Positions 18,512 through 37,096 of a DNA stretch of 64,000 nucleotides are shown piece by piece. The notes beneath the pieces are model-generated. The model ran no database searches. It saw only the letters and a program-made list of their open reading frames with translations, and had not been told where the DNA came from. Source of the DNA: Hyunsoonleella aquatilis (GTDB taxonomy: Bacteria; Bacteroidota; Bacteroidia; Flavobacteriales; Flavobacteriaceae); NCBI RefSeq assembly GCF_014270105.1, contig NZ_JACNMF010000004.1:1-64000 (forward strand). Reading direction: 5' to 3'. The translations under genes and the position numbers were made by a program. The stretch's first letter is position 1; each line of letters opens with the position of its first letter.

Positions 18512-20785
18512 TTAGAATCTTACAGATACCTTCCCTCTCAAAAAGAAAGGCGCACCGGGTGTAAAATGGATTTCCTCCACCGAATCTGCCTCTCCCATCA
18601 ATCTACTTTCGGTGGCAAACTGGGTTTCGTTCCAATCCACATCAAACAAGTTCTCTACAATTAATCCGAATGTCCAATTCTTGCACGAATAGTTAATATT
18701 AAAATCCGTTACAAAGTAGCCCTCAGCCACAATTGAATTATCCTCATTTGCCGGACGGTCTTTGATATAGCGGTAATTGATGCTTCCGGAGAATTTGCCC
18801 AACTCCTTAAAACTAAAGCCACCTGCAGAAGTTAAATCCGGCGCAAGTGGTATATAATCTTGCCCATCCGGTTCTTCGGTGCTTCTAGCATGTGCGTAGT
18901 TAACATCGGTATTAAAATAAAGCCAATCTGCAATTTGATATCTTAAACCAAAATCGATACCCAGTCGTCTTGTTTTCCCACTGGGCTCTACGATACCGGC
19001 ATCCCCAACATAAACAAATTCCTGCTCTAACCACAAGGACCAAAATGCCGCATTAACTACTAACTTACTCGTTGGCTTCCATACCGTCCCTAAATCCACA
19101 CTGAAAGCTGAGGGCAGAGTTTCAATGTCCGTAATTGTCAAATCTGGATTTTGGGTTTGAATCTCTTCTCTTGTAGCTACAACTAAACGACTATCGTTTG
19201 AATGGTAGCCCAAACCAGTTTTAGCAAACAATTGTAGTTTTTCATTAGGAGAATAAATAGCGTTAAACTTTGGGCTGACTATGACATCATTTTCACTTCT
19301 GGAGTCATAAGTTGGCATTAACAAGTTTTCATATCCGAAATTAAAATAATCTACGCGAACTCCGGGGTTCAATGTCCACTTATTGCATTTATAATTTAGG
19401 TCAGCAAATGCAAAACCATTGGCTTCGTCCACATTGCCATAAGCTAATCGTTCCAAAAGCTCTTGCCTATTCCTAGTTCGTGACAATTGGTTGTCGTTTA
19501 CATCATCATAACGAAAACCTACTCCAACACGATACTTCAATTGTTTTTCGTGATCGGCCAAATGAAAAGACTTTTCGTAAACACTTTTAGCCCCAATAAT
19601 GGTTCTATCTTCGTATTGGCGAATTTGATCTCCATTTACAGGATCCTCCAAAAGAAAGGTAAAATTTGAAAACAATTCAAAATCATATTGGGATACATAG
19701 GCGGAGGATGTCAAACTTGTATGTTCATCAAAATGTTTGATATGGTTCATCCAAATGTTGGTCCTACTCGTATTACCACCCTCGGTATCATCGATAGCTC
19801 CAAACCGACCAATTAATCCAGAATCAACCGCGCGTTGCGGAATCTGTCCCGAGGCATCCCACTTACTTTGAAAGTGTGACAATGACAGGTTGAATTCCTG
19901 ATCCTTAAAGTTGTTGTAATTGTAACGCCCCATGATGTTCAAACGGTTAAAATTTTGTGGCGAATCGAATACTCCGTCCGTTAGGTTCAACTCACTTGCT
20001 ACATAGGCATTGCTATTTTCGCCGTCCCAAATTTTAAGCATGCTCATGGCACGAACCGTATTGAATTGGCCAGCTTCAACTGAAATCACATTTTTATCGA
20101 TTTTCTTTTTGGTAACAATATCCACATAGCCTGCGGTATTGAAATTCCCCTTATCAGCATAATAGGAACCCTTTCCAAAATCTAAATTTTCAATGGTTTC
20201 GGGAATGATAAAGTGCATATCGGCATACCCTTGTCCATGCGCGTGGGATACCATGTTTACCGGCATACCGTCCACATCAATCGCAATATCAGTACCGTGA
20301 TCAATATCAAATCCCCTGAGGAAAATCTGCTCGGCTTTACCGCCACCAGCATGCTGACCGATAAACAATCCCGGGATTTTACGAAGGATTTCCTGAGAGG
20401 TTTTTACGGGAGTTGTTTTTAAATCCACATTCACAAAACTACTCAGCACATTTACTTTGGAAACAATCAGCACTTGGTCTAAAGATGCTGAAGATATTTC
20501 AAGAATTATGTTTATGGTACTATCCAAATGCGACTCGTCTATGGTGAGTTCGTAATTTTCAAATCCCAGTTGATAGAAATAAACAACATCTCCTACCGAG
20601 ATGTCGTCGAGTTCAAAATAACCGGAAACATTGGTATAGGTATAAGCCCCCGTATTTTTATTGTAAACCCCGACACCTTGAAGGGGCTTTTCGTTTTCTG
20701 CTGAAATTACCGTGCCGTTAAGCTCGTGGGCGTAAGTACATAATCCCACGGCAAGCAAGAGTACTGTTAGTATATTTTTTAACAT
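18512..20785 (-). CDS. TonB-dependent outer-membrane receptor
   Basis: 757 residues. A signal peptide (1-19) is followed by a carboxypeptidase-regulatory-like domain (about 20-105), a plug (about 110-235, with SQEILRKIPGLFIGQHAGGG and a VNMVSHAHGQGYADMHF segment) and a beta-barrel ending in the terminal Phe typical of outer-membrane proteins. The family imports metal chelates, cofactors or oligomers using TonB energy. The plug has a His-containing HAHGQGYADMHF stretch, which would fit metal or metal-complex binding, but I cannot assign a ligand. It lies downstream of the NRPS and His-rich genes on the same strand, with a 131-bp gap. This suggests it recaptures the locus product or its metal complex. 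Confidence 0.9.
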   Translation of the reverse strand: MLKNILTVLLLAVGLCTYAHELNGTVISAENEKPLQGVGVYNKNTGAYTYTNVSGYFELDDISVGDVVYFYQLGFENYELTIDESHLDSTINIILEISSASLDQVLIVSKVNVLSSFVNVDLKTTPVKTSQEILRKIPGLFIGQHAGGGKAEQIFLRGFDIDHGTDIAIDVDGMPVNMVSHAHGQGYADMHFIIPETIENLDFGKGSYYADKGNFNTAGYVDIVTKKKIDKNVISVEAGQFNTVRAMSMLKIWDGENSNAYVASELNLTDGVFDSPQNFNRLNIMGRYNYNNFKDQEFNLSLSHFQSKWDASGQIPQRAVDSGLIGRFGAIDDTEGGNTSRTNIWMNHIKHFDEHTSLTSSAYVSQYDFELFSNFTFLLEDPVNGDQIRQYEDRTIIGAKSVYEKSFHLADHEKQLKYRVGVGFRYDDVNDNQLSRTRNRQELLERLAYGNVDEANGFAFADLNYKCNKWTLNPGVRVDYFNFGYENLLMPTYDSRSENDVIVSPKFNAIYSPNEKLQLFAKTGLGYHSNDSRLVVATREEIQTQNPDLTITDIETLPSAFSVDLGTVWKPTSKLVVNAAFWSLWLEQEFVYVGDAGIVEPSGKTRRLGIDFGLRYQIADWLYFNTDVNYAHARSTEEPDGQDYIPLAPDLTSAGGFSFKELGKFSGSINYRYIKDRPANEDNSIVAEGYFVTDFNINYSCKNWTFGLIVENLFDVDWNETQFATESRLMGEADSVEEIHFTPGAPFFLRGKVSVRF

Positions 20786-20916
20786 AGCATTGGTTATTAA
20801 TTTCTTTTGAAAGGACTAAAATCATCCTCCCAAAAGAGTTGGTTTATAAAATTTTTTTTGAATTGATAGCATCGAGATTGTTGCGTAATTTTCATTTTTA
20901 CACAACATTTTTCTTA

Positions 20917-21381
20917 TCAAGTAAATTGAGGGGGTTGGAATTTTCCGTCTGGGTATCCATTTCGGATATGCTGAAGTTTGACAAAAAATTGATGCCTAAT
21001 GTGTTGGGCCGAAAAAAATGATTGCCTTTTATACGTCAGATTTGTCCGTATATGCTTGTCTATTTTTTGGAATACTATTTTGGGCTCATCCTTATCGTTA
21101 TCGGTATCAGAGGCTTTCAATATTTTTTGAATCGTTTCCAAAAAAGTATGCTGATGGGCTTCGTCATTCTTTAGTTTATGATTGGTGTGGCCCGCATGAT
21201 TTGTGCGCTCAGCACTTGTATGCGACATAACATTTTCGGGCATTTCCAACTGATGCACTAAAATATGTAACACCTTGTTCACTTCACTATGAGACGGCCC
21301 AAACACATAGCACATGCTCATCGCAATGGCAACAATCTTTATGGCGAACGGCTTTAAGCCTTTTTGGGCGGTGCTATTCAT
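20917..21381 (-). CDS. Small His-rich exported or membrane-anchored protein
   Basis: 154 residues. An N-terminal hydrophobic segment (about 13-30, IKIVAIAMSMCYVFG) could be a signal peptide or anchor. A His-rich stretch follows (about 38-80) with the pattern HxxxHxxHxxH...HQH. I do not recognise a named family. Its start overlaps the end of the synthetase gene upstream by 8 nt, so the two are translationally coupled, and the TonB receptor follows. The His cluster suggests binding of a transition metal in the periplasm; this is inference. The gene order supports a metal-related role for the whole arm. Confidence 0.7.
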   Translation of the reverse strand: MNSTAQKGLKPFAIKIVAIAMSMCYVFGPSHSEVNKVLHILVHQLEMPENVMSHTSAERTNHAGHTNHKLKNDEAHQHTFLETIQKILKASDTDNDKDEPKIVFQKIDKHIRTNLTYKRQSFFSAQHIRHQFFVKLQHIRNGYPDGKFQPPQFT

Positions 21382-24300
21382 TTAACAGTTCCATGATGGT
21401 TTTTTCTATATTTTGGGAATAGGCCTCAATGGTGGGGTAATTAAAAACGTCGGTAACTGGCACCTCCAATTCCAGCATGGCCTTTAGCCTAGAGGTGATG
21501 GAAATGGCATTGAGGGAATTGCCCCCAATTCTAAAGAAATTTTCGTTTACGCCGATGTTTTCAATTTCCAAAACTTCTTTCCAGACTCCATGTACCAATT
21601 CCTCAATTTCATTTTTAGGCAATGCTTTTTCTTGTCGCTTATCTTGTTTACGTAAATTTATCGTTGGCAGTTTTTTTCTGTCCACTTTTCCACTTGACAG
21701 AAACTCAAATTGATCCAAATGCATGTAAAATTGAGGAACCATGTAAAGGGGCAATCGCTGGCCAAGTGCTTCTGCTATTTTTGTATCCTCAAGAGTATCA
21801 CCAAGGTAATAGGCCAGCAAGTTTTCATTTGCATCAACCATAACCACAGCTTGAGAAATGGCCTCTATCTTTTCCAGATTCTTTTCTATTTCCCCCAGCT
21901 CAATACGCAGGCCCCGCAATTTAATCTGGTTATCTATCCTGCCATGATATTCTATCACGCCATCCGGCCTATAGCGTGCCAAATCTCCTGTTTTATACAT
22001 TTTTGCACGGGGGTCATCAGAAAAAACATCGTCGATAAACCTTTCTTCTGTAAGCTCTTTTCTATTCAAATAGCCTTTAGCTACTTGAATGCCAGCAATA
22101 TGCAATTCTCCCATTGCGCCAATTGGCAAAGGGTTTAGGTTTTTATCTAAAATATGGAGTTGCGTATTGGAAACTGGAGTGCCTATAGGAATGCCCGCAT
22201 GAAGCGTTTCCCGCTTGCAATGCCAATAGGAAACCTCAACCGAAGCCTCCGTTGGCCCGTAAAGGTTATATATTTCAACATTTAATTTTTCATACGTCCG
22301 TTCTACGACCGAAACCGACAGCGCTTCCCCGCTACAAAATACAGTTTTTAAGCTTGTACAATTTTCGGCACCTCCAGCTTGAACAAACACGTTTAACATG
22401 GAAGGCACAAAGTGAATGACCGAAATATTGTTTTGCCTTATGGTATTTTGAAGATGTTCAGGATTGGTGTGCCCATCAGGGATTTCAACCACTAACTTGG
22501 CTCCAGTTTGCAACGGCCAAAATAGCTCAGGCAAAGACACGTCAAAAGTAATTGGTGTTTTTTGAATCAAAGTATCGCTTTGATCAATAGACTGATAATC
22601 CTGCATCCAATTCAAGCGGTTACAGATACCCTTATGGTGGCACATGACGCCTTTGGGCTCACCTGTACTCCCGGAGGTATAAATAACGTAAGCCAAATCG
22701 TCTGGAAGACTGTCAACATCAACTGAAGATGTGCTTAGCGAAGATATTTCATCATTAATTTCTGCCACATCATAACCCTCAACATCATTTAAAACCGCAC
22801 TATCTATATGGCCGTGGTTATAAAATAAAATTTTGGCCTTGGCATCTTTAAGAATGAATTTCAGTCGCTCTGAAGGTGTGGAAATATCAAGTGGCAAATA
22901 CGCAGCACCAGCCTTTAAAATCCCGTAAATACATACCATCATTTCAATAGACCTCTCAAGGCTGATAGCGACAATATCACCTCTTTTGATGCCTTTTTGA
23001 ATTAAAAATTGAGCTACTTGATTGGACTTTTCATCCAAGGATCTATAGGACAGGGTTTCCTTCTTAAAAACCAGTGCCACGTTATCTGGAGTTTTTTGAA
23101 CTTGGTTTTTGAATTTTGAAAGTAACGTTTCTCCCTCAGGATAATCTACAGTTGTATTATTCCAAGATTTTATTTTTGAGATCTCTGTATCCGTGATCAA
23201 ACTGACGGTATCGATGTTTTGACCAGAATCCTCAACAATGGCGTCCAACATTTTAAGAAAATGCTGAGGCACCAATTCCTGCCCATTACTATCAAACTGA
23301 TTGGTATTCAAATCAAAATACAACTGCAATTGGTCTGTATTATCAAAATCATGAACGTGCAAACGCAAATGGTGTCTGGGATCATGATGTCCAGTGTGTA
23401 CCCAATTGGTTTTTACCCCAGCGCCGTTAAAGCTTGGATTTTTATTATTGATATAATTGAAAAACACATTAAAACTGCGGCTTAAATCTGCTGTGGATAC
23501 ACTGCCTTGGGCATGTTTAATAAAGCTATTGCTTTCCAATTGTACCTTTTTAAACAGGGACATAAACGTTTCGTCCTCTTCTATTTCCACAAGCAAGGGG
23601 AAGGTTTCTATAAAAAGTCCGACGGTATTTTTCAGGACTTTGGTCCCTCTATTGTTAATGGGGGATCCTATGGTTAACCTGTTCTGCCCCGAAACACGGT
23701 AAACATAAGCGTAAAGTACCGTCAGGAAAATATTATACAATGTTAGATCCAACGTCCATCCTCTTATGCCTTTCTGGTTTGCCAAGGCATTGATTTTACG
23801 GGTACGGGCCTCACCGAGGCTGACAGAAACCCGTTTTGATGGCGTATCCAAATGGGAAGTTTTATAATAGTACAAAGACGGTGTTTCTGGGAAATCCTTT
23901 AATTTTTCAACCCAAAAACCAGCATATTTTTGGTGATGTTCTCCTGCCTTGCCTTCATTGCTATTGAGTACATATTCCTGAAAAGAGGGCATTGCTTCAG
24001 CATCTTTCAGTTCGTTTTGCAATGCTTTGGCGTAACACTCCGACATTTTAGTAAAAACGAGCGAAGTGCTCCATCCATCAGAAATTAAATGGTGCTGATT
24101 GAGGTACCAAATATAGCGGGCATCGGACATTTTAATGAGCACGGTATCGAAGGCACATTTCTCTAAATTGAACATTTTCACAGACCGTTCTTTTACCCAT
24201 GTTTCATATGTTGCCTTAGGGTCTGTTTCTTTTGATAAATCCTTGAAATCCAGTTCATAATCTACCTCAGTTAAAAATTCCTGAACGGGCGCATCATCTT

Positions 24301-24496
24301 TATATTTGAATACAGACCGAAGCACATCACAAGTTTCCACCACTTTTTGAAAAGCCTCCTTAAAGTGGGGCAAAGAAATTTCATCTTGAATCTCATAGGT
24401 CATCACCATATTGTAAAGCGGTAGCCCGGGATTAAGTTCCTGGCCTATCCACAATAGCTTTTGGCTTGGCGTTAATGGTGAATAATTCCTATGCAT
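21374..24496 (-). CDS. NRPS module, condensation-adenylation-carrier (C-A-PCP)
   Basis: 1,040 residues. The condensation domain (about 5-430) has an intact HHLISDG motif (H135, H136, D140). The adenylation domain (about 440-945) has IYTSGSTGEPKG, NLYGPTEAS, YKTGDLAR and GRIDNQIKLRG. The carrier domain (about 960-1035) carries the pantetheine Ser994 in GGNSL. There is no thioesterase or epimerase. By hand alignment to EntF, the specificity residues read D-V-P-H-F-S-L-V-E-K (first D is D652). This resembles serine codes (D-V-W-H-F-S-L-V-D-K) but has Pro where Trp is usual, so serine or a serine-like residue is a weak prediction. The stand-alone carrier gene is 14 nt upstream, and the next gene overlaps its 3' end by 8 nt. 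Confidence 0.93.
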   Translation of the reverse strand: MHRNYSPLTPSQKLLWIGQELNPGLPLYNMVMTYEIQDEISLPHFKEAFQKVVETCDVLRSVFKYKDDAPVQEFLTEVDYELDFKDLSKETDPKATYETWVKERSVKMFNLEKCAFDTVLIKMSDARYIWYLNQHHLISDGWSTSLVFTKMSECYAKALQNELKDAEAMPSFQEYVLNSNEGKAGEHHQKYAGFWVEKLKDFPETPSLYYYKTSHLDTPSKRVSVSLGEARTRKINALANQKGIRGWTLDLTLYNIFLTVLYAYVYRVSGQNRLTIGSPINNRGTKVLKNTVGLFIETFPLLVEIEEDETFMSLFKKVQLESNSFIKHAQGSVSTADLSRSFNVFFNYINNKNPSFNGAGVKTNWVHTGHHDPRHHLRLHVHDFDNTDQLQLYFDLNTNQFDSNGQELVPQHFLKMLDAIVEDSGQNIDTVSLITDTEISKIKSWNNTTVDYPEGETLLSKFKNQVQKTPDNVALVFKKETLSYRSLDEKSNQVAQFLIQKGIKRGDIVAISLERSIEMMVCIYGILKAGAAYLPLDISTPSERLKFILKDAKAKILFYNHGHIDSAVLNDVEGYDVAEINDEISSLSTSSVDVDSLPDDLAYVIYTSGSTGEPKGVMCHHKGICNRLNWMQDYQSIDQSDTLIQKTPITFDVSLPELFWPLQTGAKLVVEIPDGHTNPEHLQNTIRQNNISVIHFVPSMLNVFVQAGGAENCTSLKTVFCSGEALSVSVVERTYEKLNVEIYNLYGPTEASVEVSYWHCKRETLHAGIPIGTPVSNTQLHILDKNLNPLPIGAMGELHIAGIQVAKGYLNRKELTEERFIDDVFSDDPRAKMYKTGDLARYRPDGVIEYHGRIDNQIKLRGLRIELGEIEKNLEKIEAISQAVVMVDANENLLAYYLGDTLEDTKIAEALGQRLPLYMVPQFYMHLDQFEFLSSGKVDRKKLPTINLRKQDKRQEKALPKNEIEELVHGVWKEVLEIENIGVNENFFRIGGNSLNAISITSRLKAMLELEVPVTDVFNYPTIEAYSQNIEKTIMELLNE

Positions 24497-24510
24497 TTAG
24501 TTTCAAATTT

Positions 24511-24753
24511 TTAAACTTTTTTGCTTGAAATAAAATTGCTGATATCTTCAACAGTCATAAAATTTTCGATTATCATTTCTTCCGGATCAACCTTAATTTC
24601 AAATGTTTCTTCTACATAGGCAATCAACCTTACCATGGCCATGGAATCTAAAATACCACTGCCCAGCAGGTCGTCAGTGGCATCCAATCCGTCTTCAATA
24701 TATTCATTGGCAAGTTCCTTCTCTATATATTTTATGATCGTTTGTTCCATCAT
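24511..24753 (-). CDS. Stand-alone peptidyl/aminoacyl carrier protein
   Basis: 80 residues with a carrier-protein fold signature. The phosphopantetheine attachment site is Ser37 in GSGILDSMAMVRL, followed by an EETFEIKVDPEEM helix. The DSM context and the acidic helix after it recall PltL/RedO-type prolyl carrier proteins. Its start overlaps the end of the adenylation gene (ATGA), so the pair is translationally coupled, as expected for a cognate enzyme and carrier. It must be activated by a phosphopantetheinyl transferase, probably the Sfp-type enzyme at 36374-37096. It probably feeds an aminoacyl group to the C domain of the adjacent C-A-PCP protein. Confidence 0.88.
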   Translation of the reverse strand: MMEQTIIKYIEKELANEYIEDGLDATDDLLGSGILDSMAMVRLIAYVEETFEIKVDPEEMIIENFMTVEDISNFISSKKV

Positions 24754-26312
24754 ATATTGGCAATCATTTTTTCTATTTCTTTTCTATTTATCTTTCCCGA
24801 ACTGGTTCTTGGAAAGGACTTCAATATCAACACCTCACCAGGAACGGCATAAACTGGCAGGTGTTTTTTACAGTGCGATTTCAGGTCTGCGCCTGTTACA
24901 TTAAACCTTTCGTCCACCAAAACGGTGGCAACAAGCTCTTTTTCACCGCTGGCATCTATAAAAATAACAGCCACTTCAATAACGGCATCATGCCTTGCCA
25001 ATGTGTTTTCTATTTCGTCAATCTCAATACGAAAGCCTCTAAATTTAATCTGTCTGTCCTTTCTTCCTAAAAACAGGATTTCGCCTTTCTCGTTCAGTTT
25101 TACCAAATCTCCAGTTCTGTAATATCTGTGCTCAAACCCGGGGGCAATTTCTTCTATATAAAATGAGGCCTCGGTAAGTGCTATATTGTTCCAATAGCCT
25201 TTCATTACTGTGGCCGACCTTATTACAAGAAGCCCCTCCTCTCCTTTGTCAACCTCGTTATCCACTTCATCTAAAATTTTATATTCCGTATTTTTCCAAG
25301 TGAAACCTATCGGAATTGGCTCATCACCTTCGGGAGGTTCGGACAAATTATAGTAGGTGCATTGGTTGGTTTCCGTAGGCCCGTAAATATTGCTAAACTG
25401 CGCCTGAGGCCAGTGTTGCATTAAAGTGCGAAGTTGTTTCGTTGCAAAAACCTCCCCAGCAAACAATACCCAGCGCAAACTTGAGAAATCCTTGTTTTGG
25501 ATACCTCCTTTGTGCAACAATTCAATCAAAAGCAACGGCACGGAATACCAAATGGTCACTTTTTCCTTTACCGTCATATCTGCTAAACTCATTGGAAACT
25601 TTAAATGGGCATCGGAAATAATGACGGTTGTGGCTCCCCCCAATGGTGCGGCGCAGTATCCTAAAATGGACACATCAAAATGCAATGGCGCAGAGTTTGC
25701 TACAACATCATCCGATTTAAAATCGTATAAATCCACCACCAATTTTGAAAACGCCAGCCCGCTATCATGGGTATGCATAATACCTTTCGGTACACCGGTA
25801 CTTCCTGAAGTATATAGAATATAGGCCAGATCCTCGGCTAAAATGTTGACTGGGACGCGTTTTTCCAAAGACTGCTTGAAAAGGGTTTCCCAACTTATGG
25901 CTTTTATTGCATCTATTTCAGATACGCCTATGATGGATTCCAAACCAATATCTGCCTCCAAAAGCTTTTTGATTTTCTTGGCCTGCTTTGGAGTGGTCAC
26001 CAAATGTTTTATCCCACAGTCGTTTACCAAAAACTTTATGCGTTCGTTGGGTACAAATGGGTCAATTGGCACATAGGCCGCCCCAGATTTTAAAATACCG
26101 TAAATGGCGATTGAAGTTTCCAAACAGCGGTGCATAAAAATGCCAACGCGGTCGCCCTTCTTAATGCCTAGGTTTGCTAAATGTTGGGCAAGTTGGCTGG
26201 TTTTAATATCTAAATCCCTATAAGTTATGGATTCATTTAGATATCTAAACGCCACCTTTGAAGGGAATTCTTTTGCAGAATTCTCTACGATTTGGACCAA
26301 ATTATAAATCAA
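24750..26312 (-). CDS. Stand-alone amino-acid adenylation enzyme (prolyl-PCP ligase-like)
   Basis: 520 residues, a complete adenylation domain without condensation or carrier domains: YTSGSTGVPKG, NIYGPTETN, YYRTGDLVKL, GRKDRQIKFRGFR and the C-terminal TSSGKINRK lysine. Hand-read specificity residues are about D-V-G-Y-L-A-I-Q-C-K (D213 first). These share the Y, L, A and C positions with PltF/RedM-type L-proline activators (D-L-L-Y-L-A-L-V-C-K), so proline is the best guess, with low certainty. In pyrrole pathways such enzymes work with an acyl-CoA-dehydrogenase-like oxidase, and none is present here. It could also load the adenylation-less module of the large synthetase in trans. It is the first gene of the minus arm. 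Confidence 0.85.
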   Translation of the reverse strand: MIYNLVQIVENSAKEFPSKVAFRYLNESITYRDLDIKTSQLAQHLANLGIKKGDRVGIFMHRCLETSIAIYGILKSGAAYVPIDPFVPNERIKFLVNDCGIKHLVTTPKQAKKIKKLLEADIGLESIIGVSEIDAIKAISWETLFKQSLEKRVPVNILAEDLAYILYTSGSTGVPKGIMHTHDSGLAFSKLVVDLYDFKSDDVVANSAPLHFDVSILGYCAAPLGGATTVIISDAHLKFPMSLADMTVKEKVTIWYSVPLLLIELLHKGGIQNKDFSSLRWVLFAGEVFATKQLRTLMQHWPQAQFSNIYGPTETNQCTYYNLSEPPEGDEPIPIGFTWKNTEYKILDEVDNEVDKGEEGLLVIRSATVMKGYWNNIALTEASFYIEEIAPGFEHRYYRTGDLVKLNEKGEILFLGRKDRQIKFRGFRIEIDEIENTLARHDAVIEVAVIFIDASGEKELVATVLVDERFNVTGADLKSHCKKHLPVYAVPGEVLILKSFPRTSSGKINRKEIEKMIANI

Positions 26313-26326
26313 TTTCTCTTCTTTTA

Positions 26327-26371
26327 TTAGGCCTTAAAACCTAATAGTTTAGCAATATTCTCAATGTCCAT
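26327..26371 (-). other. Possible 14-residue leader peptide frame
   Basis: An ATG at 26371 opens a frame encoding MDIENIAKLLGFKA, stopping with TAA at 26327, 15 nt before the adenylation gene start. An AGGCCT-containing sequence occurs on both sides. It could be a translated leader, a gene remnant or chance. Confidence 0.2.
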
Positions 26372-26637
26372 CAGGCCTTAAAGCTATAATTTCTTTTAGA
26401 AAAGATACACATTTCGTTTTATTTTGATTCAATTAACTTCAATAATTATTATTGAGCAAAAACAATCGTTGGGAAACTTTTTAAATCGATTAAGTTTGAT
26501 TTTTTTAGCATTTACCCCTACAATACTTACAATTGCCCTCCAATTTCACACTTTAACGAATAAACTGAACATCATATATCAAATATTGATTGTTTTCATC
26601 TTTTTATTAATATTATTGAAAAAAAATCACTAAAACT

Positions 26638-26687
26638 GATTTCACCCTATTAATTTCTTTCCTGGGAATCAAAATAAAGGTGAAATC
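26638..26687. promoter_or_regulatory. Inverted repeat before the plus arm (GATTTCACC...GGTGAAATC)
   Basis: GATTTCACC (26638-26646) and GGTGAAATC (26679-26687) are perfect 9-bp arms 32 nt apart, ending 15 nt before the HupE-like start codon. The element could form an mRNA stem that affects initiation, or bind a dimeric regulator. Confidence 0.35.
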
Positions 26688-26702
26688 GACAAAAAGAAAA
26701 AT

Positions 26703-27966: not shown

Positions 27967-30900
27967 GTGAAAAAGGACATTAAACCCATGTCTTTACTGG
28001 AAAAATGGAAAAGTAAAGACAAAAAGCCGTCGGCTTCTAATACCATTGAAAAGGCGCCACCAGATGCCAAAATCCCACTCTCCTATGGGCAGAAAAGACT
28101 GTGGTTCCTACAGCAGATGTATCCCGAAAATGTGTTCTATAATCTATCGGAATACTTCACTTTTGAGGGGGATTTGAATGTAGATGCCCTAAAGCACAGT
28201 TTAAAAACTTTTTTTGAAAAGCACCAGGTTTTTAGGTCCTATTATGAGGTTGATGAGAATGGAAAACCCATACTTAAAATTGACGATGCCATCAATTTCA
28301 ATATTCTTGAGGAAGATTTCAGCAGTCATCCCGAAACCGAAAAGGAATTAAAGGCTAAACAATTTATGGATAGGCAGGCGGACCATAGTTTCAGCCTGTC
28401 CGTCGCACCACTATTTAAGGCTTCATTATTTAAGTTTACTGAAACCAAACACATCCTTCTTTTAACCTTTCATCATATTATTTCGGATCAGTGGTCGATG
28501 AATATTTTAAGGGAAGAACTAGCGGAATACTACAACCACTTTATTAAAGGTGAAACGATACAAATTGAGGCCAATGCCATTGATTTTAGCGATTACGCCT
28601 TTTGGCAAAATAAACATCAAACCTTTGATAAACAGCTTTCATATTGGAGGAAGAAATTATCCGGCAACATTCGGGTTTTAGATTTACCTACTGATTTTAA
28701 ACGCCCCGTAACGCCGTCATACCATGGCACCGAACTTACCCTGAATTTTGATGAAAATTTTTCAGGTCGAATTTTAGAATTGGCAAAAAATATGGGCACA
28801 ACCCCCTTTGTACTTTTTTTATCGGCCTACTATCTCTTGTTGCATAATTTTTCGAAACAGGAAGACATTATAGTGGGCACCCCGGTGGCCAACAGAAACC
28901 AAAAGCAGTTGGAATCTATTTTTGGGCTGTTTATTGATACGATGGTTTTAAGAACTTCGATTAAAAAAGAGTTCACCGTTTCCCAATTTATTGAAGAAGT
29001 AAAAACTGTTTTTACGGAAGGGCTGGCCAACAAAGATGTACCTTTTGATATGCTGGTCAAGAAAATGCAGATAGAACGTTCCCTTTCTGTCAATCCGTTG
29101 TTTCAGACCATGTTTGTGTACATCCCAAAATCTGAATTGCCTTCCTTTGGAAACGAGGTAACCCTCACCGAAAATAAAGATTATATTGCCGAGGTTTCAA
29201 AATTTGACCTCACCCTTTTTATCCACGAGGACCATGGTAAAATAGTATCAACTTTTGAATACGCCACCGATCTTTTCGAAGCAAACACCATCCAGAGATT
29301 TCAAGATTATTTACAGCATACTCTACATTTTATTGTAGAAAATCCTAACGGGCACATTGAAGATATTCCAGGTTTGTCCGAAGCGGATGAAAAAGTTTTG
29401 CACTTAAATAACTCCCCCAAAGCACATCCTTTTGAAAGCTACAATGCCATCCATCATATTATTGAAGATATTGCTAAAAAGCACCCAAAAAATACAGCAG
29501 TTTCTTTTGAAAATCAATCTATTTCATACGATGAATTAAACCATAAATCTACAGTTCTTGCCACAGAACTCCTCAAAACAAACTCCAATGAAAATACCAT
29601 TGTAGGGCTTTGTGTTGAACGCTCTTTGGACATGATTATCGGGATGCTTGCCATATTAAAAGCGGGACGTGCCTATCTGCCCATTGACCCCGATTATCCC
29701 TCCCAGCGTATCGCTTTCATATTAAAGGATTCAAAGGTGAAACAAGTTATTACGCAAACGCCTCTCCTAAAACTATTTGAACAATTTGAGGGTACATCCT
29801 TTTTAATTGACAAAATCAATCTTAACAAATCGGTTGAAACCGAAACGTTTCCTAAAGTGAATGGTGACGCCCTTGCTTATGTAATTTACACTTCCGGAAG
29901 TACTGGACAGCCCAAAGGGGTGCCCATTACCCATAAAAACATTATCAATTCCACTGGTGGCAGGCTAAATTTTTACGACCACCATCCTTCGGCATTTTTG
30001 TTGATGTCGTCCATTTCTTTTGACAGCTCCAAAGCAGGTATTTTTTGGACGCTCTGTACGGGAGGCCACTTGGTTCTTACAAAAAAACGCATGGAGCAGG
30101 ACATTGAAAAAATTGCGGAAACTATTGAACGGCATAATGTTTCGTATACCTTGATGCTCCCCTCCTTGTACAATGTAATTTTGGAAAATGCGGATACATC
30201 AGAATTAAAATCCCTTAACTCAGTGGTTGTGGCGGGTGAGGCCTGTTCCATTTCGCTTTGCGAAAACCATTTTAAAACATTACCTGAGGCCAACCTGTAT
30301 AACGAGTATGGCCCCACGGAAGCATCGGTTTGGTGCATTGCACACAAAATTACACCGGTGGATTTAATGAAGGAGCAAGTACCGATAGGTAAGCCAGTAG
30401 CAAATTCCCAAATACATATTTTGGACGGCGATCTTAAAAAAGTACCCTTTGGTGTTGCCGGCGAGATTTACATTGGAGGGCCTGGGCTTAGCCAAGGCTA
30501 TATCAATCGAGTAGATTTAACAAACAAAGTTTTCATCCAAAATCCATTCATTCCAGAAGAAAAGCTTTATAAAACTGGAGATTTAGGGAAGTACCGAAAT
30601 GACGGCACTATTGATTTTCTTGGTCGCGCCGACCAGCAAATCAAAATTAGAGGCTTTAGGGTTGAACTGGACGACATTGAAAACACCATCAACAACAGCG
30701 GTTTGGTAAAACAAGCTGTGGTTGTAGTAAAACAAGAAACTGGCAAGCCAAAACGGCTGGTGGCCTTTATCGTGCCGAAGTCAAGCTATGATGAAAATTT
30801 GTTAAAGCAGTATCTGAAAAATGCCTTACCGGATTATATGATTCCCCATAGTTTTGCCGAAATTGATCAAATTCCCCTGTTGCCCAACGGGAAAGTTGAC

Positions 30901-33900
30901 AAAACAAAATTGGGTGCGTTAAACATCACCACTAGGGAAAATTCCGAAAACAATAACGAGGGACCCAAAAACGAGCTGGAGCGACAATTATTGGATATTT
31001 GGAAATCCATCCTTGGTATTGACAAGTTAGGTACAAAAGACAATTTTTTCGAAGTTGGCGGGGACTCGATTTTGAGCATTCAAATCATTGCCATGGCCCG
31101 TAAAATGGGGATTGCTATTGCCCCCAACCAATTATTTGAACATCAAACTATTTCTGAACTGGCCATGTTCGTATCGCGGGAAGATGACAAGAATCTCAAC
31201 AAGGAAGATATGGTTATGGGAGACATCCCCCTTAGCCCAATTCAACATTGGTTTTTTGATAGCCACAAATTGGCCCCGGAGTATTGGAACCAAGGGTTTA
31301 AATTCCAGAGTTTACCGCAAAATGTAGGTGAGGAACGATTACAAGTAATAACCCAAAAGATTATCAAAACTCATGATGCCCTGCGCTTAAGTTTTTACCA
31401 AAAGCACGAACAATGGCAGGCTAAAGTTTTGGCTCCCGAAGCGGTGAAAGCTTTTGAAATAATTGATGTTTCAAGGCCTTCAAACGAAAATATTGATATC
31501 GAAATTGAAAAAGGCCTAAAACTAATTCAGGAAAATATCCAGCTTTCGGAAGGCGGGCTGTTTAAATGTATTTTCGTCAAGCACATCGAAAGTTCAAAAA
31601 ACAGCATCATTCTGCTCGCCCATCATTTGGTCATTGATTTCGTGTCGTGGCAAATCATCATAAATGCGTATTCCGAAGCATTTGAAAATGACGATTTGAA
31701 ATGGTTTGAAAACAAAACCGCTTCCATAAAGTCGTGGACAGATCATTTAAAGGAACAGGCTAATTCTGGTAGTTTTTTAAACGAATTACCGTATTGGAAA
31801 GCCCAAACCCAAACGTCAAATATATTCTCTAATTTATCGGAAAACAAACTACCAGTGCATCAAAAGGATGTTAGCAGTATCGACTTCAACATTGATAAAG
31901 GGCTAACACAAAACCTTATGGAACTGGCAAACAAAGCTTTTAATACAAAAACGGATGAGTTACTGCTGACGGCACTGGTTGATACTTTGGCACGTTACGG
32001 CAAAACCGACAGCCTCACCTTGGCATTGGAACGTCATGGGCGGGAAGCAACTGACGCCTCTATGGATTTATCAAATACTGTAGGTTGGTTTACATCGTTT
32101 TTCCCAAAGCGTTTAGATTTGGATTTGAATGGCGACATTGGTTCTAAAATTATGACAGTTAAGGAGCAGATGCGAAGTATTCCAAAAGGCGGAATGGGTT
32201 ATGGCATTTTGAAGTTTTTGACCACCCATTTAAAATCATCCGACTATCCCGAGATTGTTTTCAATTTTTTGGGCAGACAGAATACTGGAGAAACCGACAT
32301 AAAATTCATTTCAAAAAACACCATTCATCCGCTTAGCGAAAGATACTATGTTTTGGAAATCAATGCACTGGTTAAAGATGGGGTTTTAGAAATGGCATGG
32401 AATTATGCCGATCAAATCATTGAAAAAGAAACAATAACCAGTTTGATTGCTAATTTTGACCAAAACTTGAAGCTGATTATTGCCTATTGTTTGGATAGCA
32501 AAACCAGGTTTACACCATCAGACTTCCCGGAAATTGAAGCGACACAAGACGAACTGGACCATTTGTTCAATAGCGAAAACGCAAAGCTTCCTAACCAAAA
32601 TATAAAAACAATATATCCTTTGAACGTTATGCAACAAGGCATACTGTTCCACACCTTAACCTCGGAATACGACCAAGGTTTCCTTAATGTACAATGTACG
32701 ATTGACGGAAAACTAGATGCTGAAATTTTCAAAAAAGCTTGGGGGTTAACAGCAAATCGGCATTCCATTTTAAGATCCTCGGTACATTGGGACAATCTGA
32801 GAAACCCTCTGCTAATTGTTAATACGTCGACAAAAATCAAATTGGACTCTGTCGATTGGCTTAATATAGACGAAACTATACATAACGATAAACTCGCTGA
32901 ACTCAAAAACGACAATAGAACTAAGGGCATAAATTTCAATGAACACCCATTATCCCAAGTACAACTGATTAAAACTAAAACCGATTCGCATATCCTTTTA
33001 TGGTGTTGCCATCATTTACTATTAGATGGTTGGTCAACCAGCATCATTCTTAAGGACCTTTTCTCAATTTACGATTCAGTTCTAAGAAATACTCCGCCGG
33101 ACCTCCCTGCAATTCCTGGTCATGCTTCTTACTTAAATTGGCAAAAACGCATCCCAATCGCAGATGCCAAGAAGTTTTGGAAGCGCACTTTTGAGGGATT
33201 CAATTCCCCTTTTCTGTTCAACCCGAACCAATACGGCATTCAAAATCTGCAAGAACAGAATCTTGCTTTGTCTAAAGAAGTCTCAAAAACTGCCCACGAC
33301 TTAGCCAAATCTTATAAAATTACATTAAACACACTATTTCAGGGGATATGGTCGCTCATCATTTCTAAATTTTCTGGACAGAATGACATTACTTTTGGCA
33401 ATACTGTTTCCGGACGTTCAGGAGATTTCCCAAATATAAATTTGATGGCCGGAATGTTTACCAATGTGTTACCATTTAGAATTGTTGTGCAGGATAAAAG
33501 CAAGATAAGACAATGGTTCCAAGCTCTACAAAAAAATCAACTTGAATCTAGAACGTTTGAACATTTTTCCCTGCCGGAAATTTCAGAATGGATCGAGACC
33601 GAACGTACCAATTTGTTTGACAGCCTCTTCCTTTTTGAGAATTATCCTTGGGAAGACCTCAACATTGGAAACCTTAGCATCCATAGTTCCCAGAGTGGAA
33701 TTACCAGTACCTACCCTGTCACCTTGGCCATTACTACAGGGAAAAAAATCAGAGTTTATTTGATGACAACACCACAATTTGTTTCAGTAGATAACTGTGA
33801 ATGGATGCTTCGTCAATTCCAAAAAATCATTTCCGTTTTAGGTGAAGACGATCCAATTGACTTGGGAAGTCTATTGAACAAAATAGAATCCGCACCAGAT

Positions 33901-34971
33901 GAGAATGCAAGTGTTGTTTTGGAAACACCCCAAGAAACCCACTCTATTGTATCCCCCAAGAATAAAACTGAATTGGAACTGCTGAAGATATGGGAAGCTT
34001 TATTGTCCCAAGAAAATATTGGAACCGCGCATAACTTTTTCCAAATTGGAGGTACATCGCTGATGGCTATTAAAATGTTTACTTTAATTGAAAAACGATT
34101 AGGCTTGCGGATACCTCCAATAACCTTGTTAAAGCATCCCACAATTGCCTCCTTGAGTGATCATATATTAAGAAAGGATGAGAGTCAAGGGTGGAAATAT
34201 GTAGTGCCCATAAAATCCGGAGGCGACAAATCCCCATTGTTTTGTATTCATGGTGGAGGTGGTTTTGTTTTTTTCTTCAACCCCATTGCTCATGGCCTTG
34301 AAAAAGACCGGCCAGTCTATGCTATTCAACCCTCAGGCTCAAATAGCAATACAAATTTGCACCAAAGCATCGAAGAAATGGCACGGGATTATGCCAAGGA
34401 AATAAAAGACATTCAACCAAAAGGACCTTACCACTTATTAGTATATTGTTTTAGTCCAGCAGTAGGTATTGAAATCGCCCGAGAGTTTGAGCAGTCCGGC
34501 GATACGGTTCATCTAATAGTGATAGACAGTATAATCAAACAAGAAGATTTTACGGACCCAACACGGATAAAAATGCGTGTTTCCGGATTTTTGAATCGTT
34601 TGGCCAGCAATCCGTTAAATGCACTTAAATTGATGATTTCAAATAATTACGAGCGCTTTTTGGAATCTTCCGTAATTAAACTGTTTGGTTCTCAAACCAA
34701 AAAGGATTTAGAAAAGATAAAGCAGAATTTAATCCGTATTTACAAACAGTATAGTTGGGGCAGCCCTCATACGGGAAAAACCACGCTTATCCTTACCGAA
34801 AAACCAGACAAGAATTTGAATCCCACTTATATCAAAGCCTGGAAAAGCATCACCACTAATGAAGTTGACGTTCTTTATACAGATGGTCAGCACCATCAAT
34901 TGTTTGAAGCCCCTTATGCAGGTAAATTAGCGACGCAAATTGAAAAGGCCATTAATGATTATAGCACGTAA
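27967..34971 (+). CDS. Large NRPS, C-A-PCP-E-C-PCP-TE
   Basis: 2,334 residues from GTG at 27967; ATG at 27988 is an alternative start. Domains: C1 (about 38-460, HHIISDQ, H169/H170/D174); A (about 485-985, YTSGSTGQPKG, specificity residues about D-S-A-L-V-A-E-V-W-K, first D686, substrate not predicted); PCP1 (Ser1034 in GGDSI); epimerase E (about 1090-1520, HHLVIDFVSW from H1219, ERHGRE, NTVGWFTSFFP); C2 (about 1540-1960, YPLNVMQQGILFHTL, HHLLLDG at 1682-1688, of D-donor type); PCP2 (Ser2031 in GGTSL); thioesterase (about 2085-2334). PCP2 has no adenylation domain, so it needs loading in trans. The thioesterase elbow reads VYCFSPAV, with Cys2161 where Ser is usual; HGGGG and H2309 are present. 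It is cotranscribed with the glycosyltransferase and phosphopantetheinyl transferase. Confidence 0.93.
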   Translation: MKKDIKPMSLLEKWKSKDKKPSASNTIEKAPPDAKIPLSYGQKRLWFLQQMYPENVFYNLSEYFTFEGDLNVDALKHSLKTFFEKHQVFRSYYEVDENGKPILKIDDAINFNILEEDFSSHPETEKELKAKQFMDRQADHSFSLSVAPLFKASLFKFTETKHILLLTFHHIISDQWSMNILREELAEYYNHFIKGETIQIEANAIDFSDYAFWQNKHQTFDKQLSYWRKKLSGNIRVLDLPTDFKRPVTPSYHGTELTLNFDENFSGRILELAKNMGTTPFVLFLSAYYLLLHNFSKQEDIIVGTPVANRNQKQLESIFGLFIDTMVLRTSIKKEFTVSQFIEEVKTVFTEGLANKDVPFDMLVKKMQIERSLSVNPLFQTMFVYIPKSELPSFGNEVTLTENKDYIAEVSKFDLTLFIHEDHGKIVSTFEYATDLFEANTIQRFQDYLQHTLHFIVENPNGHIEDIPGLSEADEKVLHLNNSPKAHPFESYNAIHHIIEDIAKKHPKNTAVSFENQSISYDELNHKSTVLATELLKTNSNENTIVGLCVERSLDMIIGMLAILKAGRAYLPIDPDYPSQRIAFILKDSKVKQVITQTPLLKLFEQFEGTSFLIDKINLNKSVETETFPKVNGDALAYVIYTSGSTGQPKGVPITHKNIINSTGGRLNFYDHHPSAFLLMSSISFDSSKAGIFWTLCTGGHLVLTKKRMEQDIEKIAETIERHNVSYTLMLPSLYNVILENADTSELKSLNSVVVAGEACSISLCENHFKTLPEANLYNEYGPTEASVWCIAHKITPVDLMKEQVPIGKPVANSQIHILDGDLKKVPFGVAGEIYIGGPGLSQGYINRVDLTNKVFIQNPFIPEEKLYKTGDLGKYRNDGTIDFLGRADQQIKIRGFRVELDDIENTINNSGLVKQAVVVVKQETGKPKRLVAFIVPKSSYDENLLKQYLKNALPDYMIPHSFAEIDQIPLLPNGKVDKTKLGALNITTRENSENNNEGPKNELERQLLDIWKSILGIDKLGTKDNFFEVGGDSILSIQIIAMARKMGIAIAPNQLFEHQTISELAMFVSREDDKNLNKEDMVMGDIPLSPIQHWFFDSHKLAPEYWNQGFKFQSLPQNVGEERLQVITQKIIKTHDALRLSFYQKHEQWQAKVLAPEAVKAFEIIDVSRPSNENIDIEIEKGLKLIQENIQLSEGGLFKCIFVKHIESSKNSIILLAHHLVIDFVSWQIIINAYSEAFENDDLKWFENKTASIKSWTDHLKEQANSGSFLNELPYWKAQTQTSNIFSNLSENKLPVHQKDVSSIDFNIDKGLTQNLMELANKAFNTKTDELLLTALVDTLARYGKTDSLTLALERHGREATDASMDLSNTVGWFTSFFPKRLDLDLNGDIGSKIMTVKEQMRSIPKGGMGYGILKFLTTHLKSSDYPEIVFNFLGRQNTGETDIKFISKNTIHPLSERYYVLEINALVKDGVLEMAWNYADQIIEKETITSLIANFDQNLKLIIAYCLDSKTRFTPSDFPEIEATQDELDHLFNSENAKLPNQNIKTIYPLNVMQQGILFHTLTSEYDQGFLNVQCTIDGKLDAEIFKKAWGLTANRHSILRSSVHWDNLRNPLLIVNTSTKIKLDSVDWLNIDETIHNDKLAELKNDNRTKGINFNEHPLSQVQLIKTKTDSHILLWCCHHLLLDGWSTSIILKDLFSIYDSVLRNTPPDLPAIPGHASYLNWQKRIPIADAKKFWKRTFEGFNSPFLFNPNQYGIQNLQEQNLALSKEVSKTAHDLAKSYKITLNTLFQGIWSLIISKFSGQNDITFGNTVSGRSGDFPNINLMAGMFTNVLPFRIVVQDKSKIRQWFQALQKNQLESRTFEHFSLPEISEWIETERTNLFDSLFLFENYPWEDLNIGNLSIHSSQSGITSTYPVTLAITTGKKIRVYLMTTPQFVSVDNCEWMLRQFQKIISVLGEDDPIDLGSLLNKIESAPDENASVVLETPQETHSIVSPKNKTELELLKIWEALLSQENIGTAHNFFQIGGTSLMAIKMFTLIEKRLGLRIPPITLLKHPTIASLSDHILRKDESQGWKYVVPIKSGGDKSPLFCIHGGGGFVFFFNPIAHGLEKDRPVYAIQPSGSNSNTNLHQSIEEMARDYAKEIKDIQPKGPYHLLVYCFSPAVGIEIAREFEQSGDTVHLIVIDSIIKQEDFTDPTRIKMRVSGFLNRLASNPLNALKLMISNNYERFLESSVIKLFGSQTKKDLEKIKQNLIRIYKQYSWGSPHTGKTTLILTEKPDKNLNPTYIKAWKSITTNEVDVLYTDGQHHQLFEAPYAGKLATQIEKAINDYST

Positions 34972-35009: not shown

Positions 35010-36362
35010 ATGGCCCACATTGCACTTATAATAACAGGTTTAACAGGAAGACTGTATTCAAGCTTTGAAATGGCCACGCGGTTAGAAAAAGAGGGACACA
35101 AAATTACATACCTGTGTCCCATGGATGTTAAGGAAAAGGTAAAAAGTATTGGTTTTGATTATGTTCAACTCCCTGAAATCAACTATAATTTTGAGGCTAA
35201 AAATCAAAAGAACGAACCCCAAACAAACTGGACGAAACGTTTAAAAAATCATTTAAAACATTACTCCAGCCATTACACCAAAGGCAAGGAAATTCTTGGA
35301 TTAGACGTTTATAATAGTATCCTTAATAATCTAAACCCAAACCACATTATTATAGATGCAGAATTGCATGATATCATTTTTGCCTCTTTGAATTTGGACA
35401 CTAAAATTACGTTGTTCACGGCTTGGTTCAACAATGAAATGAGAGCAGATTTGAAGCTCCCCCCAATCCGAACCAGTACTATCCCAGGAAAAGGGATCAA
35501 AGGTAGTTGGCTCGGCATCTTATTATCTTGGACTTTTGTAAAATTAAAAGTTAGAGCAAGGATTATTGTAAACAAATTAAAGTTTAGAGACTACAGGCGA
35601 TGGACGCTTAAAACCTACGCCTTGAAACAAGGAATGCCTCCTGAAAATATCATTTTAAGCAACTTGCCAGATCTTTTCGCCTATACCAATATCCCAACCA
35701 TTTCCATGTCTGTTGCCGAAATGGATTTCCCTCACGACCCACCAAATCATTTCAAATATATTGGCCCGATGGTTTATGAGCAAAGGGAATTGAAGTTTGA
35801 TAAGAATGTGGCAAAAATGATTGAAAGCGTTGTCAAAATAAAATCAGAATCGGAAAAAAAATTGATTTACTTTTCAGCGAGTAGCTTTATTAATCCAGAA
35901 ATGGACTATATCAACAGAGTTATTAAAGCCGTTAACAACAGAAGAGATTGGTTAATGATAGTGAGCCTGGGAGGAAAATTGAATCCCAGTGAATTTGCAT
36001 CCGTGGCTACTGAAAACGTATATATTCTCAGCTGGGCACCTCAACTGCAAGTTTTAAATCAAGCCGATTGTTGCATAACCCATTGTGGCGCAAATAGTTT
36101 GAATGAGTGCATTTATTTTGGAGTACCAATGTTGGCCTACTCAGGGAAATACTTTGAACAAAGCGGTAATGCGGCAAGAATTCATTTTCATAAGTTGGGT
36201 ATTATGGGCGATAAGGATAAGGATAGCCCAAAAATAATTGAAAAGAACTTGGAAAGGGTTTTGGACGATCCTACTTTTAAAAATAATGCCACTCACTATA
36301 AGAAAATTTGCAAAGACTACAAAGAAAGAAGATTGTCTACCATTCTTAAAATAGAAGTTTAA
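35010..36362 (+). CDS. GT1-family (UGT/MGT-like) glycosyltransferase
   Basis: 450 residues. The N-terminal half begins with a glycosyltransferase-B-fold strand (HIALIITGLTGRLYSSFEMA). The C-terminal half carries the GT1 nucleotide-sugar signature: SWAPQLQVLNQADCCITHCG, then NSLNECIYFGVPMLAYSG and the FEQSGNAARI segment. There is no signal peptide or clear membrane span. Such enzymes transfer a sugar from a nucleotide donor to a small-molecule acceptor such as a macrolide or peptide natural product. It lies 38 nt after the large synthetase and 11 nt before the phosphopantetheinyl transferase. I infer that it glycosylates the peptide, for tailoring or self-protection. Sugar and acceptor are unknown. 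Confidence 0.88.
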   Translation: MAHIALIITGLTGRLYSSFEMATRLEKEGHKITYLCPMDVKEKVKSIGFDYVQLPEINYNFEAKNQKNEPQTNWTKRLKNHLKHYSSHYTKGKEILGLDVYNSILNNLNPNHIIIDAELHDIIFASLNLDTKITLFTAWFNNEMRADLKLPPIRTSTIPGKGIKGSWLGILLSWTFVKLKVRARIIVNKLKFRDYRRWTLKTYALKQGMPPENIILSNLPDLFAYTNIPTISMSVAEMDFPHDPPNHFKYIGPMVYEQRELKFDKNVAKMIESVVKIKSESEKKLIYFSASSFINPEMDYINRVIKAVNNRRDWLMIVSLGGKLNPSEFASVATENVYILSWAPQLQVLNQADCCITHCGANSLNECIYFGVPMLAYSGKYFEQSGNAARIHFHKLGIMGDKDKDSPKIIEKNLERVLDDPTFKNNATHYKKICKDYKERRLSTILKIEV

Positions 36363-36373
36363 TTTTATAAAAA

Positions 36374-37096
36374 ATGGATAGCTCCAAAATAAATATTCTT
36401 GAGATTTCTAACGGAAACTGTCATGTTTGGATGGTGAATTTTAATGAAATGAAATCGAATATTTCTCTTTTTTCGAATCATTTATCGGATGATGAAAAAC
36501 TGAGAGCCTCAAAATTCCACTTCAAAAAGGATGAGGAACGCTTTATTGTATTCAGAGGCATTTTGCGTTTCATTTCGGGAAAATATTTAAACTTAAAGCC
36601 TGAAGCAGTTACTTTTAAATATGGCGAATTTGGAAAACCGGAATTTGCACTGAAGGCGGACCTTAAATTTAATATCTCACATTCCAAAAATATGGCCGTG
36701 ATGGGTTTTGTAAATAATTTTGATATTGGCATCGATATTGAATTTATGAAGTCGGATTTCCATGTGATGGATATCGCCGATAATTACTTTTCAAAACGTG
36801 AAATTGAGGACCTGCACCACTTTCCGGATTCCTTGCAAACTGAGGGGTTTTATAGATGTTGGACCAGAAAAGAGGCCTTTATAAAAGCAAAATCCAAGGG
36901 GCTCTCATTTCCCTTGGATGCTTTTTCGATCTCTATCGATTCGGACAATGAAGCCGAATTATATGAAACTTTATGGGACGCCAATGAAAAAGACTTATGG
37001 CACATCTCCCCTTTTGAAACCGCGAAGAACTATAAGGCCGCGTTGGCGATAAAAGGCAACATTGAAAAGGTAGATTACTTCGATTTCAAACTGTAA
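36374..37096 (+). CDS. Sfp-type 4'-phosphopantetheinyl transferase
   Basis: 240 residues. Sfp-family signatures: GEFGKPEF...FNISHSKN (about 87-107), the Mg-binding GIDIEFM (about 117-123), and FYRCWTRKEAFIKAKSKGLS (about 156-175). It transfers the phosphopantetheine arm of coenzyme A to the carrier Ser residues. The Sfp class serves secondary-metabolite carriers, and its place as the last gene of the plus arm means it probably activates Ser37, Ser994, Ser1034 and Ser2031 of the three carrier-bearing proteins. A bidirectional terminator follows. Confidence 0.93.
   Translation: MDSSKINILEISNGNCHVWMVNFNEMKSNISLFSNHLSDDEKLRASKFHFKKDEERFIVFRGILRFISGKYLNLKPEAVTFKYGEFGKPEFALKADLKFNISHSKNMAVMGFVNNFDIGIDIEFMKSDFHVMDIADNYFSKREIEDLHHFPDSLQTEGFYRCWTRKEAFIKAKSKGLSFPLDAFSISIDSDNEAELYETLWDANEKDLWHISPFETAKNYKAALAIKGNIEKVDYFDFKL

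Follow-up and report, generated by a model that had tools for sequence, protein, structure and literature searches.

A divergent nonribosomal peptide synthetase locus conserved in Bacteroidota that probably makes and recovers a histidine-containing metallophore

Introduction

What is a set of peptide-assembly genes doing among genes for metal uptake? The question is raised by positions 18512–37096 of a 64,000-nucleotide (nt) stretch of the Hyunsoonleella aquatilis genome (family Flavobacteriaceae; contig NZ_JACNMF010000004.1, positions 1 to 64,000 of the forward strand; hereafter the window), where genes for nonribosomal peptide synthetases (NRPSs) share two divergent arms with those for a TonB-dependent receptor, a His-rich protein and a HupE/UreJ-type permease (HupE). 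An earlier note, made from the letters of the window, took this gene set for one functional unit and proposed a short, possibly glycosylated peptide with a D-residue that is recaptured, perhaps with a metal; it knew of no described product of such a gene set. With a probability of roughly 0.68, we conclude that the locus serves to produce and recapture a small nonribosomal peptide metallophore, Pro-Ser-(D)-His-X, with Cu(II) or Ni(II) as its probable metal. It would belong to a widespread and apparently undescribed family of metallophores with a His core, and the case for this is stronger than the earlier note put it.

Conservation of the locus

One arm lies on the minus strand. Outward from a 390-nt intergenic region presumed to contain both promoters (26313–26702), it encodes a stand-alone adenylation (A) enzyme with a TTG start (24750–26312), a stand-alone peptidyl carrier protein (PCP; 24511–24753), an NRPS that begins with a condensation (C) domain and reads C-A-PCP (21374–24496), the His-rich protein (20917–21381) and the receptor (18512–20785). 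The plus-strand arm encodes HupE (26703–27917), a 2334-residue NRPS with the order C-A-PCP-E-C-PCP-TE, in which E is an epimerization and TE a thioesterase domain (27967–34971), a GT1 glycosyltransferase (GT; 35010–36362) and an Sfp/HetI-type phosphopantetheinyl transferase (PPTase; 36374–37096), the last two assigned by both Pfam and NCBIfam. The gene order, domains and tight spacing of the earlier note are borne out by the open reading frames (ORFs) and Pfam matches. The A and PCP genes overlap by 4 nt and the C-A-PCP and His-rich genes by 8 nt; the gaps within the arms are 14, 49, 38 and 11 nt, with 49 nt between the HupE stop and the start of the large NRPS, and the 131 nt between the receptor and His-rich genes is the sole larger within-arm gap. 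The 3.93-Mb genome has four condensation-family domains, and the locus holds every one of them.

Close full-length HupE proteins occur in 14 of 149 same-family genomes from 148 genera, H. aquatilis included in each count. The other 13 carry the same divergent locus: the C-A-PCP protein, the PCP, HupE and the NRPS are present in 13/13, the stand-alone A enzyme in 11/13, and the PPTase, within the fetched stretch, in 12/13; the receptor is seen in eight, the remaining five stretches ending too early. In contrast, none of the seven weak-HupE loci examined, from 115 genomes that have a weak HupE relative only, holds other genes of the locus. Since the block is kept in 13/13 close-HupE genomes and 0/7 weak-HupE loci, it behaves as a single unit, more than chance would give.

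A HupE scan of named genomes, taking the best 80 of 288 relatives, gives 81 loci together with the window, from Wocania, Algibacter, Zobellia, Maribacter, Arenibacter, Winogradskyella and Dokdonia, and further from Saprospiraceae, Lewinella and Cyclobacteriaceae metagenome-assembled genomes. The NRPS is present in 79 of these, at a median distance of 25 nt from HupE; one of the two loci without it (L186) comes from a stretch that stops 136 nt past the HupE match. The PPTase is found in 67/81 loci. A homolog of PigA/RedW-like prolyl-PCP dehydrogenases (36/81 loci) provides a further landmark: in seven Saprospiraceae-type loci (L180, L181, L185, L187, L188, L190 and L191) the receptor sits between this dehydrogenase and HupE, inside the biosynthetic arm. 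Among the 13 loci L180–L182 and L184–L193, HupE is in 12 cases immediately preceded by an ORF that, judged by its LSGGQ/E motif, resembles an ABC exporter. In one genome of another family (G210), a Pfam-confirmed ABC exporter accompanies the genes for C-A-PCP, A, dehydrogenase, HupE, NRPS and PPTase, and a receptor with a His-rich neighbor is present about 5 kb past the GT. The single functional unit of the earlier note is therefore supported by a block kept across Flavobacteriaceae, Saprospiraceae and other Bacteroidota.

The permease, the receptor and the His-rich protein

The C-terminal transmembrane part of HupE (residues 189–352) matches PF13795 with an E-value of 1.4e-46, and a His follows directly after the predicted signal peptide (AFA/HLPNQS; the cleavage site was judged by eye, with no signal-peptide program). 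This N-terminal His is invariant, being present in 14/14 of the close set and in 81/81 loci (six of them by eye). In a Foldseek comparison, the AlphaFold2 model of HupE (predicted local distance difference test 75; predicted template-modeling score 0.54) matches the copper-bound Ang-1 domain in PDB 9gce with an E-value of 1.1e-4, probability 1.00, a template-modeling score of 0.57 by target length and a root-mean-square deviation of 5.7, whereas a HupE profile against PDB sequences returned no match. By these sequence and modeled fold features, the window HupE has what marks the anglerase-HupE group. The Ang-1 affinities given in the available text of PMC12537917 are 74 nM for Cu(II) and 220 nM for Ni(II).

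The mature N-terminus of the receptor, which we propose to be the receptor for the metal–peptide complex, is likewise predicted to be His (CTYA/HELNG), as in 47 of the 57 full-length locus receptors, window included; the ten without it are those of L146, L152 and L153 and of seven loci from L181 on. Pfam places a Plug domain, two CarboxypepD_reg models and OMP_b-brl_3 in the protein, and no PF00593. Orthologs next to the same NRPS (eight stretches) are 64–88% identical, and no second receptor match exists in the H. aquatilis genome at E ≤ 1e-20. The adjacent His-rich protein, exported or membrane-anchored by our reading of its sequence, has 13 His among 154 residues; blastp homologs are present in 48/81 loci, and neither Pfam nor NCBIfam gave a match.

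Receptor relatives were also sought in 296 genomes of the phylum Bacteroidota, 44 of which, besides our own, have a match, and 20 of their neighborhoods were fetched. One contains the locus and another (G001) an NRPS relic, where the receptor (71% identical) and the His-rich gene are retained beside a 109-residue frame whose residues 29–99 correspond to the PCP that forms the last 71 residues of a C-A-PCP protein, with 73% identity to that of Zobellia russellii (L154). The rest of the pathway was not found in this 20-kb stretch and no close HupE in the genome; NRPS genes elsewhere in it were not searched for. This is the pattern one would expect if the cell relied on the product of its neighbors. 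Recapture, as the earlier note had suggested, gains from this relic, from the receptor inside the biosynthetic arm in seven loci and from the anglerase-like HupE with its invariant N-terminal His, features that would fit binding of a metal as well.

Two of the 20 receptor relatives lie near UreD (Pfam, both), each accompanied by a urea transporter (L098, Pfam; L103, by eye), which hints at nickel. Others without an NRPS adjoin DUF4331 and TPR genes, both Pfam-verified in L088 and similar in several further neighborhoods.

The synthetases and the predicted product

Substrate codes were read by aligning the A domains to EntF of E. coli, the last letter by eye. The stand-alone A enzyme (A1) has the code DVLYLAI, resembling that of PltF and RedM, and its best stand-alone match in the PDB is 6o6e, an L-proline--[L-prolyl-carrier protein] ligase; the dehydrogenase homolog in 36/81 loci points to proline as well. 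The enzyme looks Pro-specific, with L-proline the predicted substrate. The dehydrogenase homolog, whose family was tested on L121 only (PigA/RedW-like, E-value 3.7e-119, under the curated cut-off), is not in the window's locus. Because it is missing there and the acyl-CoA-dehydrogenase-like matches in the genome are just 29–34% identical, Pro probably stays saturated in the product of the window.

The A domain of the C-A-PCP protein (A2) reads DVPHFSLV, then E by eye, in the window, a Ser-like code as in EntF and shared with 10 other domains. Most relatives (52/70 domains) have DL[TS]KIGE[VI], an Asn-like code.

For the A domain of the large NRPS (A3), 72 of 73 domains read DS[ATV]LxAEV at eight positions, and the remaining one is unreadable at two. 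The window has DSALVAEV, then W by eye, predicted to specify His; in the available text of the survey PMC12283262, DSALIAEVWK is listed for His, with beta-hydroxy-His as a further substrate it can accept. The E motif HHLVIDFVSW and the HHxxxD motifs of the C domains are intact, as is the serine of each of the three PCPs in the two multidomain synthetases. By module count and the intact E domain, a short peptide with a D-residue, as the earlier note had it, is supported, and the most economical product would be Pro-Ser-D-His-X, perhaps glycosylated. Glycosylation is plausible for the window and optional in the family, with GT relatives in 24/81 loci, window included; the GT protein, run through PADLOC, gave no match.

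By motif count, 30/81 loci have the E domain, 29 of them with a C-TE unit after it, 40/81 have A-PCP-TE only and four have A-PCP-C-TE without the E motif; L181 is different and six are unreadable. The TE nucleophile position is occupied by Cys in the window (VYCFSPAVG) and in 74/74 aligned relatives, and by Ser in EntF.

Relatives of these enzymes show further variation. A WbuX/WbpG-type amidotransferase of about 342 residues (PP-loop, SGGKDS) is inserted in the A domain of 48 of 66 aligned C-A-PCP relatives (for example, L171:3506–7651), and is absent from that of the window. All 48 inserts pair with the Asn-like code, whereas only three of the 18 proteins without an insert are Asn-like. The family of the insert was tested on L171 only (TIGR03573, E-value 2e-36, under the curated cut-off); the WbuX-like assignment rules out an N-methyltransferase and supersedes a weak QueC match. 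A protein of about 263 residues resembling guanidinoacetate N-methyltransferase (3orh, E-value 1.7e-24) occurs in 21/81 loci (for example, L171:14160–14951), where its gene interrupts the NRPS of the His module, with A on one side and PCP on the other; the protein has no Pfam match (tested on L037). An 1800-residue version of the C-A-PCP protein (L167:4077–9479) contains both Asn-like and Ser-like A domains and may stand midway between the two kinds of module. The stand-alone A enzyme is missing from L128, L138–L143, L145, L148, L155, L156, L161, L162, L165, L167–L169, L179 and L183, which in most cases keep the PCP, so that the carrier there must be loaded by another enzyme.

Proposed mechanism

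From the genes, domains, codes, conservation and fold resemblance set out above, we infer an order of amino acids, and with it metal binding, export and transport, as follows. The PPTase, judged by its family, would activate the carrier domains. The stand-alone A enzyme would load L-Pro onto the stand-alone PCP, the C-A-PCP protein would add Ser, and the large NRPS would add His and epimerize it to D-His. The C-PCP-TE end may then add one more residue, conceivably a second Pro, supplied in trans, before release by the thioesterase with its Cys nucleophile, and the GT1 enzyme may glycosylate the peptide. Once exported, the peptide would bind a divalent metal via the N-terminal amine, two amides and the imidazole, a set of donors like that of the amino-terminal Cu(II)- and Ni(II)-binding (ATCUN) motif (N-X-X-His). 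Re-entry of the metal–peptide complex would be by way of the TonB-dependent receptor. In the periplasm its metal would pass to the His-rich protein and to the HupE domain that starts with the N-terminal His, and from there via the membrane part of HupE to the cytoplasm.

The ATCUN donor set, which goes with an unblocked N-terminus and a His as the third residue, favors Cu(II) and Ni(II) according to the available text of PMC10221980. As the predicted peptide would have both features, it would be expected to share this preference, and by analogy the metal is most likely Cu(II) or Ni(II). A bolder and tentative extension, with the odds somewhat against it, is that these loci represent the first family of NRPS-made ATCUN-type metallophores, in which Pro or pyrrole, Ser or Asn, and (D-)His serve Cu(II) or Ni(II) together with mostly His-starting receptors and an anglerase-HupE, and in which the amidotransferase built into many relatives would convert the side chain of Asn to an amidine or a comparable additional ligand.

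Weighing the evidence

Several observations weigh against a copper or nickel metallophore. The locus genes include neither a chelator pathway of a known kind nor FecCD nor a periplasmic binding protein (Pfam on nine genes and NCBIfam on seven; antiSMASH was not run). The exporter seen in relatives is absent from the window's locus, and the LSGGQ/E motif occurs in no kept ORF of at least 150 residues in the 64-kb window. The window A2 code has P where relatives carry W, which makes the Ser assignment uncertain, and the last PCP comes without an accompanying A domain, hence the X in the predicted product. In L190, the second locus without an NRPS, a NACHT-like reading frame (by eye) lies downstream of HupE instead, while the upstream side keeps the A, dehydrogenase, receptor and exporter-like genes.

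Nor do metalloenzymes single out a metal. Neither urease nor NiFe hydrogenase has a match in the H. aquatilis genome. Among the 149 genomes, urease is above the Pfam cut-off in one, a carrier of the locus (G013), and under it in three more; NiFe hydrogenase is found in 19, including two of the 14 locus genomes, with no association. LarA is found in 0/149. Nickel superoxide dismutase also gave 0/149, a result that carries no information, since the control of that search was silent too. The copper enzyme NosZ is present in 9/14 locus genomes versus 63/135 others, with no clear enrichment.

A search of the intergenic sequence found no metalloregulator site at the locus, and a search for shared k-mers in 64 intergenic regions returned A-rich leaders. 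An element T[TG]AAC-N16-TCATCGAAAA, picked out by eye in about a dozen relatives, lies 110–250 nt upstream of HupE (L136, L141, L144, L150, L154, L158, L159, L171, L174 and others) and is possibly an ECF-sigma-type (extracytoplasmic function) promoter. It is not clear in the window, in whose divergent intergenic region no clear shared operator was found.

The lack of association with nickel or copper enzymes leaves room for the same pathway with zinc (or cobalt) as its metal, captured as by ZrgA-type zinc proteins. His-rich proteins bind zinc well, and Foldseek ranks the zinc protein ZrgA (8ezw, E-value 8.8e-5; also 8f1b) first for the HupE model, narrowly before 9gce, a result that also counts against copper or nickel. 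We nevertheless consider zinc unlikely, as the characterized HupE/UreJ-2 Ang-1 domain is slightly destabilized by Zn and stabilized by Cu and Ni in the available text of PMC12537917.

A different division of the locus would make the receptor, the His-rich protein and HupE an independent uptake set for free or foreign metal complexes, with the NRPS product, an antibiotic or a signal, a mere neighbor. The remaining 18 of the 20 receptor neighborhoods, which have neither an NRPS arm nor a relic in the 10–20 kb seen and in some cases include a His-rich partner (by eye), speak for this division and against a dedicated metallophore, and HupE relatives of a different clade occur without the NRPS locus. 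The division is improbable in view of the close HupE clade, which accompanies the NRPS in 79/81 loci, of the short distance by which HupE precedes the NRPS in the window, and of the seven Saprospiraceae-type loci in which the receptor is embedded among the biosynthetic genes. An iron siderophore of unusual chemistry is very improbable: a TonB receptor next to an NRPS usually signals a siderophore, and the receptor resembles the TonB-siderophore model at 73.6 bits, well under its cut-off of 223.5, but the locus has no catechol, hydroxamate or hydroxylase genes, no FecCD and no periplasmic binding protein, and HupE-type permeases are not known to import iron. The beta-hydroxy-His that the A3 code can accept (PMC12283262), which is present in siderophores by the available text of PMC12971057, counts on the side of iron. 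A peptide metallophore for Cu(II) or Ni(II) accordingly remains our preferred reading.

Neighboring genes

Two tandem PAS-LuxR regulators (16083–17634) adjoin the locus. The neighbors on the two sides, namely these two LuxR-PAS genes, an alpha/beta hydrolase and a glycogen-phosphorylase-like gene, were recognized in the window alone among the 81 loci, many flanks being too short to judge the left side. To the right, past the phosphorylase-like gene, lie genes for a cytochrome c552 nitrite reductase and a NapC/NirT-type cytochrome (38903–44252; nrfHA-like), accompanied by a fused ResB/cytochrome c assembly protein.

Implications

If the proposal is true, many marine Flavobacteriaceae and Saprospiraceae hold a dedicated pathway for scavenging a non-iron metal, one that mining rules built around established chelators would probably overlook. 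HupE/anglerase permeases would gain a partner molecule and a receptor, and bacterial copper or nickel nutrition would be tied to a defined peptide chemistry. The loci also offer unusual enzymes, among them a conserved Cys thioesterase and a carrier protein loaded in trans, to which the relatives add an amidotransferase embedded in an A domain and a guanidinoacetate-methyltransferase-like enzyme.

Comparison with known systems

A survey of Flavobacteriaceae gene clusters, in its available text, puts NRPSs at 7% of biosynthetic gene clusters and does not name the locus (PMC7440613). Among the literature matches listed, in a search that did not reach most subscription journals or any bioRxiv preprint, there is no published description of the locus or its product, in keeping with the earlier note.

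A stand-alone A enzyme together with a stand-alone PCP is also used in the PltF/PltL/PltE and Pig/Red systems of proline loading; the dehydrogenase of those systems has its homolog in 36/81 loci and is missing from that of the window. The thioesterase has a Ser-to-Cys exchange at the nucleophile position, as in ObiF1 and sulfazecin SulM, but we see no evidence of beta-lactone or beta-lactam formation at the locus.

Staphylopine and pseudopaline are small secreted His-based chelators for Ni, Co, Zn or Cu, and staphylopine contains D-His. A secreted His-based chelator would be common to them and to the window, with D-His found in staphylopine and proposed here. They are made without an NRPS, by nicotianamine-synthase-like and opine dehydrogenase enzymes, and Pfam finds neither kind among the locus genes.

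With nonribosomal peptide metallophore clusters (PMC12971057, available text), the likeness is the combination of an NRPS and a TonB-dependent receptor in one cluster. The transporter rule given there calls for two of PF00593, FecCD and a periplasmic binding protein, a pair that the locus lacks, and the words 'copper' and 'nickel' are absent from its main text. The locus, as we reconstruct it, works like such a metallophore system with TonB-dependent recapture, yet lacks the markers by which one is called.

The closest parallel for the permease is Anglerase-HupE/UreJ-2 (Ang-1, RbAng-1a, PDB 9GCE; PMC12537917, available text), with which it shares the PF13795 permease part, an N-terminal beta-sandwich and a His directly after the signal peptide, together with the likeness of fold detected by Foldseek. 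The words 'NRPS' and 'non-ribosomal' do not appear in the main text of that paper. Ang-1 is described there as found particularly in Pseudomonadota, and Ang-2 in Actinomycetota, whereas the permease of the window is from Bacteroidota and is tied to an NRPS and a TonB-dependent receptor.

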